Virus record (IMG/VR): IMGVR_UViG_3300030090_002290 | Location: 1 to 56,327 of that record | Strand: one strand, 5' to 3' | Length of the DNA stretch: 56,327 bases | Origin: a virus | Shown: one piece after another, positions 43,660 to 46,696 of the stretch | How positions within the stretch are numbered: the first letter of the stretch is position 1 | Layout of the letters: each line of letters begins with the position of its first letter | Notes under the pieces: model-generated | Seen by the model: only the letters and a program-made list of their open reading frames with translations | Database searches by the model: none | What the model was told of the DNA's origin: nothing | Position numbers and translations under genes: made by a program

Positions 43660-44610
43660 TTAACCTGCTGCTTGTTGTGGTTCAGCCCAACTCTCTTCGT
43701 TACGATCTTTGTCGTACCATCGAAACCAGTAATAGCCTGCGCCATCTTGAGAATCGACTTGCTTGAGGAACAACTCAAAGATCGTAACTGCTGTTGGTAT
43801 ATCAAAGTCTGTTATAGCTTCGATTACCGGGCCTTCGAAATCACCAAGACAAGGTACAGTCATACTAGTTTGATGAGGATGTAGTTGACCTCGTGATACA
43901 TAACCTGCCACGCGGTCTGCACTGTCTACGGCACGAAACCTAATTACTATAGATCCGCTTGCGTACCGTGTCATATCGATGTACATCGCAGGTATGTTGA
44001 TGAATACTTCTTCACCGTACTCATCAACAGGGTATCGTTCTTCATCGATGTTGTTTACTCGTGCACGAGTTGGTTTGGTTTTGATAGAGAACTTGTATCT
44101 GTTGCCACCCTGGTCAGGGAACTCTCTGACTTTTAGGCTGTTAGATACATACAGCTCACTGTTACGCATTTGATGATCCCAGACGTCAGTAGCATAGATA
44201 GTAGATTCGTTGGCTTTTGCTCGGAGCCGTTCAAGATTCTTTTTAACAAAGAATAATTGTTGTTTGTATTTTGCTTGTTCGTTTTCTATCGAGCTTATGC
44301 GTCTGATTGTATCTGCTAGATCATCTGAGACGTTATGAACATTACGTTCTAAACAGGCTTCTAATGATTCAGCAAGCTCTGCGTTTCCGCCTGCTATTTG
44401 TAATAGCTGCCAACGTAAACGATTGTTAGTTTGGAAAGTTTGAGCTGCAATAATCTCCCTGTTTAGCTGCCGTCTTTGTATACGTTCAAAACGTACATTG
44501 TTGTGCAGTCTTGTATAAGATCGTTGCGCTGCTTTAAGTTTTTCTTCTTCAGTAGTTATCAAAGAAGCATTGGGAAAAATCTCAAAAGTTTTTACTAGTC
44601 TGCCAGCCAT
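43660..44610 (-). CDS. Coiled-coil protein with E2-like (UBC) C-terminal domain
   Basis: A 316-residue protein. Residues about 15-135 are long helices (coiled coil). Residues about 190-300 are beta strands (EVFINIPAMYIDMTR, then GSIVIRFRAVDS) leading into H244-P-H246, seven residues, C254-L-G, and then two helices (AVTIFELFLKQV). HPx-x7-C matches the spacing around the active cysteine in E2 ubiquitin-conjugating enzymes, and order and strands fit the UBC fold. It starts in the stop of the JAB gene (TAATG). I infer a conjugating enzyme for the cassette; it could also be an inactive adaptor. Confidence 0.5.
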   Translation of the reverse strand: MAGRLVKTFEIFPNASLITTEEEKLKAAQRSYTRLHNNVRFERIQRRQLNREIIAAQTFQTNNRLRWQLLQIAGGNAELAESLEACLERNVHNVSDDLADTIRRISSIENEQAKYKQQLFFVKKNLERLRAKANESTIYATDVWDHQMRNSELYVSNSLKVREFPDQGGNRYKFSIKTKPTRARVNNIDEERYPVDEYGEEVFINIPAMYIDMTRYASGSIVIRFRAVDSADRVAGYVSRGQLHPHQTSMTVPCLGDFEGPVIEAITDFDIPTAVTIFELFLKQVDSQDGAGYYWFRWYDKDRNEESWAEPQQAAG

Positions 44611-45512
44611 TATCTAAAACCCCCTTTGTTTTCTAAATGGTGTTGTCTGTTGTACTCCTCTTCGAAGAGTGTTCTTTCTTCAGTGTCCATCTCATCTATC
44701 TCAGTTTGAGTTATCTCAATGACATCTCCTGTTGCAGGGTTTCTGAAGATCAGATCCTCTTCATCTGCTGCGCCCCAGTAGCTGCTGTAATAATCTGAAG
44801 TATCTATGAGAGTTGAACCAGGAGTATTCTGATTGTTGAACGTCATGTTTACTTGCTGGTTTAGTGCAGGCTTTTTTACAGTAGAGAAAGATGCTTTCTT
44901 TACGTTGGCCTTTACCAGTTTGTCTATGCGTTTGCGTAGTTCTTTATTTACCGGAGCAGGCATAGGTCCGTTCCATACACACTGATGAGAGCAGTTGTTA
45001 TCTACGTCATATACATCAACCTTGGAATGTCCTTGCTTGTTGTATATGCCACGGATAAATAACTTACAGCCATTGTCCAGGAACTCTTCTACTTGCATTT
45101 CGTCCTGGGCCGAGGGGCTAACGCTCATGTTTACATGTGAGTGTCCCCAATAGATTAGCTTCTCTGATTCTTTACCTGATTCTTCCAGCTCAACAGCTAG
45201 ATCACATAAAGTTTCAGCAGCTATATCGGTCTCTGCTCCATGTACCTTTTGCTTAGGTATGTAGATGTTAGTGATAGTAAAGGAAGTAATTACTCCTTTG
45301 TCGTTTGTTTCAGTCTCAACCAGACCGAGCCAACCAACTTCTGTAGATACAGAATCTACAAGGTATCGAATAGTTTCCCAGGCACTGTCTGTGTAAAACA
45401 CTTTCGGTGCTTCCGGGTATTGGTATTCGAACAGTTGCTCAGTCTCAGGAGAGTCTGAAGTTGTATCAAAGCTAGCGCGTTTGGAAGCTTTGTATTGAGT
45501 ATAAGAAATCAT
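44610..45512 (-). CDS. JAMM/JAB-domain isopeptidase
   Basis: A 300-residue protein. The JAB1/MPN metalloprotease core has E58 (STEVGWLG) and H124-S-H126, seven residues, S134-x-x-D137. This is the exact HxH-x7-S-x2-D zinc motif of deubiquitinases such as RPN11. Residues 38-175 form the domain; the rest is a linker and an acidic tail ending at 300. It would cut an isopeptide bond or trim the Ubl C-terminus. The ATG overlaps the E1 stop (ATGA) and its own stop overlaps the E2-like ATG, so all three are coupled. Confidence 0.88.
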   Translation of the reverse strand: MISYTQYKASKRASFDTTSDSPETEQLFEYQYPEAPKVFYTDSAWETIRYLVDSVSTEVGWLGLVETETNDKGVITSFTITNIYIPKQKVHGAETDIAAETLCDLAVELEESGKESEKLIYWGHSHVNMSVSPSAQDEMQVEEFLDNGCKLFIRGIYNKQGHSKVDVYDVDNNCSHQCVWNGPMPAPVNKELRKRIDKLVKANVKKASFSTVKKPALNQQVNMTFNNQNTPGSTLIDTSDYYSSYWGAADEEDLIFRNPATGDVIEITQTEIDEMDTEERTLFEEEYNRQHHLENKGGFR

Positions 45513-46201
45513 ATGTTGTCCTTAGTCGAAAACATCATAGGTTTAAAGAACACATCCAGTTGAGCTGTGGCACACCCGTCATCCAATAGGAAGTTCATGA
45601 ACTCCCATACTGCTAGGTTTGCAATGAGCGATGCGGTAGGGCCAACTGATATGCTGGTTCCACATGGAGACATTTCCCCTTCGTCATCGCTGATTAGTGA
45701 GTCGTACCACCGTTGTAACTGAACGCTGTTTGTAGGTGAGAAGTGATATACGTTACCGTGCGTCGATGCCATGCGAGTCTCAAAGATTTGAAACAGCTCA
45801 CTGTTTGGTCCTTTGTCCTGTGCATCTACAATCTGACGGCGTGATGCCATTGTGTCAGTCAGCAGGAAAAGGAAGCCATTGAACTTGCGTTGATCTATAC
45901 GCTCGTTGACGAACTGCATTGGCAGCTGGTCTTCGGCTATGCCTAGTTTCATAGAAGCCAAACTCTTGAGAGCTTGAACTTTAGGCACACCGATATGCTC
46001 ATGCATGTATGCCTGGTTAGCTAGGTTGTGTGCTTCTACTTTGTCGTAGTCATACACGCTGATGTTAGTCAGACCTAGCTCGATAAGCGACATGAACACT
46101 CGTGACCCAGTTGCACCTGCGCCAACGATATGTATTGGGTAGTTGCTGTACTCCCCAGCACGGAATACGGAATCGTGTCGAATGGTCGAGAGTAAAGTCA
46201 T
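45509..46201 (-). CDS. ThiF/E1-like adenylating enzyme
   Basis: A 230-residue E1-like enzyme. It has the nucleotide loop IVGAGATGS (G27-x-G29-x-x-G32), YDYDKVEAHNLANQ (D51, D53, N59, Q63: the ATP and magnesium-binding pattern) and K74, then LLTDTMASRR (Asp and Arg). One Cys lies in SPCGTS near the C-terminus and could take a thioester. The start ATG at 46201 follows GGAGG with ideal spacing. An in-frame extension upstream to a TTG at 46360 stays open for 53 codons and contains CPDC, so a longer form is possible but less likely. Confidence 0.85.
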   Translation of the reverse strand: MTLLSTIRHDSVFRAGEYSNYPIHIVGAGATGSRVFMSLIELGLTNISVYDYDKVEAHNLANQAYMHEHIGVPKVQALKSLASMKLGIAEDQLPMQFVNERIDQRKFNGFLFLLTDTMASRRQIVDAQDKGPNSELFQIFETRMASTHGNVYHFSPTNSVQLQRWYDSLISDDEGEMSPCGTSISVGPTASLIANLAVWEFMNFLLDDGCATAQLDVFFKPMMFSTKDNI

Positions 46202-46414: not shown

Positions 46415-46630
46415 TTAGTTACCCTTGGCACCTTGCGAGATAACTACTCGGTCTCCATCAGTCAGGGTATAACCCTGGTCAACGGTTTCAGCGCCGACTT
46501 TGATGGCTTCCGAACCAGTTGGCTCGATGCTTGCTGCACTAAGTGCATCAGCAACCGTAGCCCCCGCAGACAGAGCAACCTCTGTCACCGCACCTGGGAT
46601 GCGGATTACTTTGACGAATATTTCGTCCAT
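46415..46630 (-). CDS. Ubiquitin-like (ThiS/MoaD-type) small protein
   Basis: A 71-residue beta-grasp protein. The start at 46630 follows AGGAGG at seven bases; an upstream in-frame start would run into a hairpin. The pattern (FVKVIRIPGAVTEVALSAGATVADALSAA, quoted in part, then IKVGAETVDQGYTLTDGDRVVIS) is that of ThiS/MoaD-like ubiquitin relatives: GaTVadAL and a late GDRV strand. It ends in GAKGN rather than a bare GG, so it may need trimming, perhaps by the JAB protein, to expose a C-terminal glycine for activation by the downstream E1. Confidence 0.72.
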   Translation of the reverse strand: MDEIFVKVIRIPGAVTEVALSAGATVADALSAASIEPTGSEAIKVGAETVDQGYTLTDGDRVVISQGAKGN

Positions 46631-46668
46631 GGTGACACCTCCTGTGTCTTGTGGCAGGTTGAAGGACC

Positions 46669-46696
46669 CATAGCTAGTTGCCACGGACTAGCTATG
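46669..46696 (-). other. Perfect 10-bp inverted repeat at end of upstream gene
   Basis: CATAGCTAGT (46669-46678) and ACTAGCTATG (46687-46696) around an eight-base loop, containing the stop codon of the 46688 gene and lying about 40 bases before the Ubl start. There is no T-run, so it is not a simple terminator. It could be an operator or an RNA stem that sets how much Ubl is made. Confidence 0.55.

Follow-up and report, generated by a model that had tools for sequence, protein, structure and literature searches.

The window analysed here is the whole of IMG/VR virus record IMGVR_UViG_3300030090_002290 (56,327 bases), which encodes a P22-type portal, a terminase, a capsid protein, a family A DNA polymerase and a DUF5906 protein, a gene content that indicates a podovirus-like phage. 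Between about 34000 and 50000 the genes turn to the minus strand and the AT skew is reversed; this block houses both the DNA replication genes and a compact gene set in which a ubiquitin-like protein (Ubl), an E1-like adenylating enzyme, a JAB-like metalloprotease and an E2-like protein are encoded in this order (Table 1). The plus strand opposite the E2-like gene is riddled with stop codons. Overlaps of 1-4 bases join the E1, JAB and E2 genes (ATGA at E1/JAB, TAATG at JAB/E2) and resemble, at the sequence level, those of a translationally coupled operon; a ribosome-binding-like stretch, AAAGGGGG, precedes the E2 start. The JAB and E1 context on which the first-pass annotation had relied is real, and a Ubl belongs to it as well, with the qualification that the Pfam match of the JAB protein to Prok-JAB (E 0.06) and the ThiS-type Pfam matches of the Ubl are weak. 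The 94-residue hydrophobic protein downstream lies directly after the E2 region in all 13 close relatives, at 80-94% identity, and has no Pfam family above cut-off; the adjoining 163-residue protein is fast-evolving and begins with a zinc-ribbon-like CxxC...CxxC arrangement. Rfam gave no match in the module region, and the window contains no tRNA.

Table 1. Features of the Ubl-E1-JAB-E2 module and its downstream neighbours in the window.
Feature	Position	Strand	Evidence
Ubl, beta-grasp, 71 aa from M19 (89 aa ORF), C-terminus GAKGN	46415..46684	-	
E1/ThiF-like adenylating enzyme, 230 aa from ATG	45509..46201	-	Pfam ThiF E 1e-19 and alignments
Conserved Cys of E1	45662..45664	-	alignments
JAB/JAMM metalloprotease-like protein, 300 aa	44610..45512	-	motif kept in homologues
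JAMM motif HSHVNMSVSPSAQD	45102..45143	-	
E2-like protein, 316 aa, ATG start	43660..44610	-	homologues in 13/13 E1-selected loci
N-terminal antiparallel helical hairpin, residues 13-133	44212..44574	-	AlphaFold2 model and VIA-align
UBC-like C-terminal region, residues 137-316	43663..44202	-	separate model, pLDDT 81.4
HPH motif, H244-P245-H246	43873..43881	-	alignments; H246 near-invariant
C254, predicted catalytic cysteine	43849..43851	-	alignments
D289-G-A-G292 motif	43735..43746	-	D289 97%, G292 95% conserved
Hydrophobic protein, 94 aa	43169..43453	-	
Zinc-ribbon-like protein, 163 aa	42699..43190	-	

The E2-like protein had been put forward, from its letters alone, as the candidate for a new family in which a coiled coil is fused to a UBC-like domain. 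The translated minus-strand frame bears out the motif behind this proposal: HPH is followed by seven residues and then by C254-Leu-Gly, exactly the spacing of HPN-x7-C. A full-length AlphaFold2 model, built on an alignment of 11 sequences only (pLDDT 88, pTM 0.65), predicts a helical hairpin, a beta-meander, a motif loop and three helices; the predicted strands (160-164, 171-178, 181-186, 202-206, 209-215 and 221-227) precede the motif and the predicted helices (256-267, 271-282 and 291-314) follow it, as had been expected. The long N-terminal coiled coil stood in part: the model has two long helices (13-60 and 77-133), but their structural matches are antiparallel helical hairpins (VIA-align Z up to 12.4). 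Within the family such a helical arm is not the unusual addition that it had been taken for, since coiled-coil-like stretches precede the UBC part in several distant relatives too.

A search that started from the E1 recovered 13 viral contigs in which the genes stand in the same order, and 11 E2-like sequences were aligned. They share 25-51% of their residues with the window protein and keep H244, P245, H246, C254, G256, D257 and F258. The E1, by contrast, is 74-89% identical; the E2 is therefore fast-evolving, and its motif is not. Because invariance within the pattern-selected (A7) and regex-trimmed (A12) sequence sets would be circular, conservation was assessed on viral contigs picked by JAB similarity alone (180 confirmed, 80 kept). 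Among these 80, E1 is present in 77, the Ubl was recovered by profile in 72, and the E2-like gene occurs in 76 (73 by profile and 3 by inspection); in the four loci where it was missed (L100, L135, L139 and L160) the contig ends beside JAB. At the E2 position L163, L169 and L174 carry a PH-x4-C-x-G protein (x5 in L163), and all loci with JAB, E1 and full flanks contain either a PH...C.G protein or a YLHFG...C.G variant. Counted over 64 non-redundant profile hits, conservation is 98% for H246 and G256, 97% for C254 and D289, 95% for G292, 84% for P245 and 64% for H244; three of the hits are secondary ORFs or fragments, and C254 is kept in all 61 primary homologues, a count made without use of the motif for locus selection, with the caveat that motif-selected members formed part of the profile's training set, so that a cysteine-less relative could in principle be missed. 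The cysteine thus does not vary freely among homologues. Of the three residues put forward for an invariance check, H246 and C254 are essentially so and H244 is not, the wider phage relatives having APH, GPH, LPH or YPH in place of HPH; H244 was accordingly rejected as the key histidine, which is then H246; it occupies the place of the Asn in HPN, an arrangement shared with eukaryotic UBE2W.

Relatives of the E2-like protein were reached solely through E1, JAB and the motif: neither a tblastn search of 50,697 phage records nor a single-sequence scan of the viral contigs found a match, and a scan of genome contigs with profile A1 recovered no relative. Several of the more distant loci have features of their own. 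HSH...C-x-G proteins near JAB and E1 in Flavobacterium phage Fpv2 and two faecal phages (L020:2536-3798, L021:3352-4653 and L022:3877-4998) apparently form a further E2 branch. The E2-like proteins of L040:241-2004 and of Xanthomonas phage PhiXhv-12 (L019:3247-5925) carry C-terminal Cys-rich repeats that resemble zinc-binding repeats and are possibly a fused E3-like or target-binding part. Gut-phage loci with the short PH-x4/5-C spacing have a reverse transcriptase gene directly downstream of E1 (L163:6452-7579, L169:6757-7926 and L018:6954-8291; also L173 and L174), assigned to Pfam RVT_1 with E-values of 1e-15 to 1e-32 in the three that were scanned.

The specificity of the motif was examined blind, with a DNA pattern encoding HPH-x7-C[LF]G[DN]F that was run on viral contigs and on 84,980 bacterial and archaeal genomes. 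The viral contigs contained 33 pattern loci (13 known and 20 new), and every one of them lay in frame in a homologous protein. E1 and/or JAB accompanied the pattern in the stretch examined at 16 of the 20 new loci; the exceptions were L040, L053, L056 and L060, two of which lie in contigs where longer stretches (L114 and L123) show both E1 and JAB. The cellular genomes yielded 15 matches, about the number estimated for chance from the pattern; a single one, in Allochromatium humboldtianum, was real, its motif region matching that of viral locus L051 without a difference, and the remaining 14 fell in unrelated proteins without E1 or JAB.

As the first-pass annotation had anticipated, the protein would otherwise be called hypothetical: no family in Pfam, PHROGs, NCBIfam or PADLOC claims it, and no Pfam E2 family (UQ_con PF00179, Prok-E2) scored above cut-off for any member, the best UQ_con value being E 0.16 for one member. 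A search of the window's own record for UQ_con and Prok-E2_A likewise gave no match, but the controls were equally silent. When profile A7 was compared with all PDB sequences, only one chain passed E<=10, that of the E2 UBE2W (E=1), and the alignment lay on HPHvxSxGxxCL (HPHvySNGhiCL); the wider profile A12 recovered neither UBE2W nor any other E2. Bacterial UQ_con and Prok-E2_B proteins were also gathered from genomes as target profiles for hhalign, where, with A7 and A12, Prok-E2_B (23.1) and bacterial UQ_con (18.3) headed the list of 34 targets in this order, their His and Cys aligned in register (P 0.007-0.05); Prok-E2_B and UQ_con compared with each other score no better (P 0.25), which indicates that hhalign has low power here, and no single sequence comparison with known E2s reaches statistical significance.

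Other expectations for an E2 can be set beside the sequence. Classical E2s have a conserved Trp downstream of the catalytic Cys, and no counterpart was identified in the E2-like family; no His downstream of C254 is found among the 14 best-conserved columns. The catalytic Cys is conserved, and HPH-x7-C is present in the window and its close family; in some gut phages the spacing differs. UBE2W-family enzymes themselves carry HPH, with the second His taking the role of the HPN Asn (PMC4630614). An acidic or Ser residue at the CES/D site marks active E2s, for example Asp127 of Ube2I, which is Cys93+34 (PMC4604453); D289 lies at Cys+35, near this acidic position, an equivalence judged by position alone.

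Fold comparison with the full-length model was rejected, as it was dominated by matches to the hairpin. With the isolated C-terminal domain, Foldseek returned nothing below 1e-3 and no E2 in its first rows; after its best 1000 matches had been realigned with VIA-align, the E2 domain of Cap2 came first among them (Z 5.0, rmsd 4.2, 111-115 residues), the UEV domain of Tsg101 second (Z 4.9), and RWD domains together with UFC1 (Z 4.4) stood within the first 14 rows. The Z values themselves are low, about 5, a level at which chance arrangements occur; what counts as evidence is that members of a single superfamily gather at the head of the list. The best alignments of the model thus point to UBC, UEV and RWD domains, at low Z, instead of to an unrelated fold, and together with the retained cysteine they support the proposal of a new E2-like family.

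The same residues could suit a different chemistry. No polar residues of the family are better conserved than H, C and D, and the PH-x4-C spacing of some gut-phage members is unlike that of E2s. An alternative weighed on these grounds is an enzyme that binds metal or is a hydrolase of Cys-His-Asp type (a Ubl hydrolase or an acyltransferase, for instance); it would use H246, C254 and D289 and be linked to the Ubl pathway without being a UBC-type E2. It is considered improbable; the structural list is headed by UBC and RWD domains, E2 profiles come first among the hhalign targets, and JAB already provides a hydrolase in a set of Ubl, E1 and JAB that would otherwise be without an E2. Still less credit is given to an inactive UBC/RWD-like scaffold that would bind Ubl or E1 without forming a thioester: RWD and UEV domains do rank high in the structural comparison, and inactive E2-like domains are described in some bacterial operons (PMC1779556), yet the motif Cys, His and Gly are kept in essentially every member, whereas inactive UEV/RWD domains are without the cysteine (PMC1779556, PMC4604453). 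The protein is, with considerable confidence, regarded as a phage-encoded E2-like Ubl conjugating enzyme that completes a Ubl-E1-JAB-E2 module, and the family is best read as a new, mainly viral one of such enzymes.

The Ubl partners bear on how this module may work. The C-terminal GAKGN is invariant in close relatives, and distant Ubls typically end in [K/R]-G-[N/A] followed by zero to a few more residues; a single Asn or a tail after the Gly suggests, from these sequences, a precursor that would be matured by JAB trimming. Variants occur: the Ubl of L098 has a Lys/Pro/Ala-rich tail after AKGN, some Ubls are without the Gly (for example L129, ending AKSA), and two tandem Ubl genes at L051:6075-6591 end in AKSAA and AKSAS, the usual Gly being absent. 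A ThiS/MoaD-type sulfur transfer set, with the present protein as a sulfur-handling cysteine protein, would fit the ThiF-like E1 and the weak ThiS matches of the Ubl; it is nevertheless judged very unlikely, for no sulfur-metabolism gene is evident by eye among the recurrent, partly identified neighbours, the Ubls end in KGN and not in a free GG, and JAB and the E2-like protein indicate conjugation.

For the favoured conjugation module, the firm part consists of the four genes, their recurring linkage, the near-invariant H246, C254, G256 and D289, the predicted fold and the C-terminal pattern of the Ubls; all of the chemistry is inferred from there, as is what H246, D289 and the hairpin do and any target. 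In the best-supported order, which is drawn by analogy with Cap2/Cap3, JAB would cut off the Asn, or a longer tail, at the end of the Ubl and expose [K/R]-Gly; E1 would adenylate the exposed Gly using ATP; the Ubl would move onto C254 of the E2 as a thioester, where H246, at the place of the HPN Asn, may stabilise the oxyanion and D289 may position the incoming amine; the Ubl would then be joined to an amine of a protein of the phage or the host, from which JAB could also take it off again. As no E3 gene was recognised with the module, a probable role of the helical hairpin is dimerisation or the recruitment of E1 or of the substrate. In the Cap2/Cap3 system a thioester, Lys conjugation and deconjugation by JAB have been reported (PMC10449767).

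Among known systems, Prok-E2_B/Cap2-type E2 domains (CBASS type II and 6A-type operons) have PH-x7-C in register (wPHVESDGvLCL); that of Cap2 is the best structural match, and their operons also contain E1 and JAB. Their E2 is fused to E1 (PMC1779556), whereas the phage E2 stands alone, has a helical hairpin and lies beside a beta-grasp Ubl, and the similarity between them is not significant. The UBE2W family shares HPH for HPN and the identical spacing to the catalytic Cys; the sequence similarity is again not significant, and UbcA1, an enzyme of the UBE2W type, consists of one UBC domain and has no extensions (PMC4630614). BilABCD and PRTRC-type (6d) operons resemble the module in having Ubl, E1, E2 and JAB as separate genes; the His of BilB and 6d E2s, however, lies downstream of the Cys (PMC11354881, PMC1779556), in contrast to the upstream H246 of the phage family, and in these papers the operons are described from bacteria and not as phage modules. 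The lambda-type tail-assembly proteins TAPI and TAPK are likewise phage-encoded Ubl and JAB proteins; they are tail genes without E1 or E2 (PMC1779556, a survey of 2006), whereas the present module adjoins DNA polymerase A. That survey covers bacterial E1/E2/JAB operon types 6a-6e and the phage Ubl and JAB tail genes, and its available part holds no description of the present Ubl-E1-JAB-E2 phage module (PMC1779556). No description of phage E1-E2-JAB modules was found in the open-licence literature, to which the search was limited, so that prior description elsewhere is possible.

We rate the type of pathway as known and the E2 family in phages as new. To our knowledge, the prokaryotic ubiquitin-like conjugation systems studied to date belong to bacteria, and some of them are directed against phages; a conserved cascade that is the phages' own, if true, would mean that viruses apply the same chemistry to their own or to host proteins. 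The wider picture, somewhat favoured by us, is that of a widespread, nearly phage-specific Ubl cascade with its own PH...C E2 family and [K/R]-G-[N/A] Ubls, by which proteins of the phage or its host would be tagged in the course of infection, perhaps with no E3 involved. The E2 family added here, whose predicted HPH/PH-C active site resembles that of UBE2W, is missed by current libraries, and dozens of small four-gene sets are available for reconstitution; cultured phages of Xanthomonas and Flavobacterium carry related sets. As the four-gene set recurs in dozens of other phages, phages may tag proteins much as human cells do.
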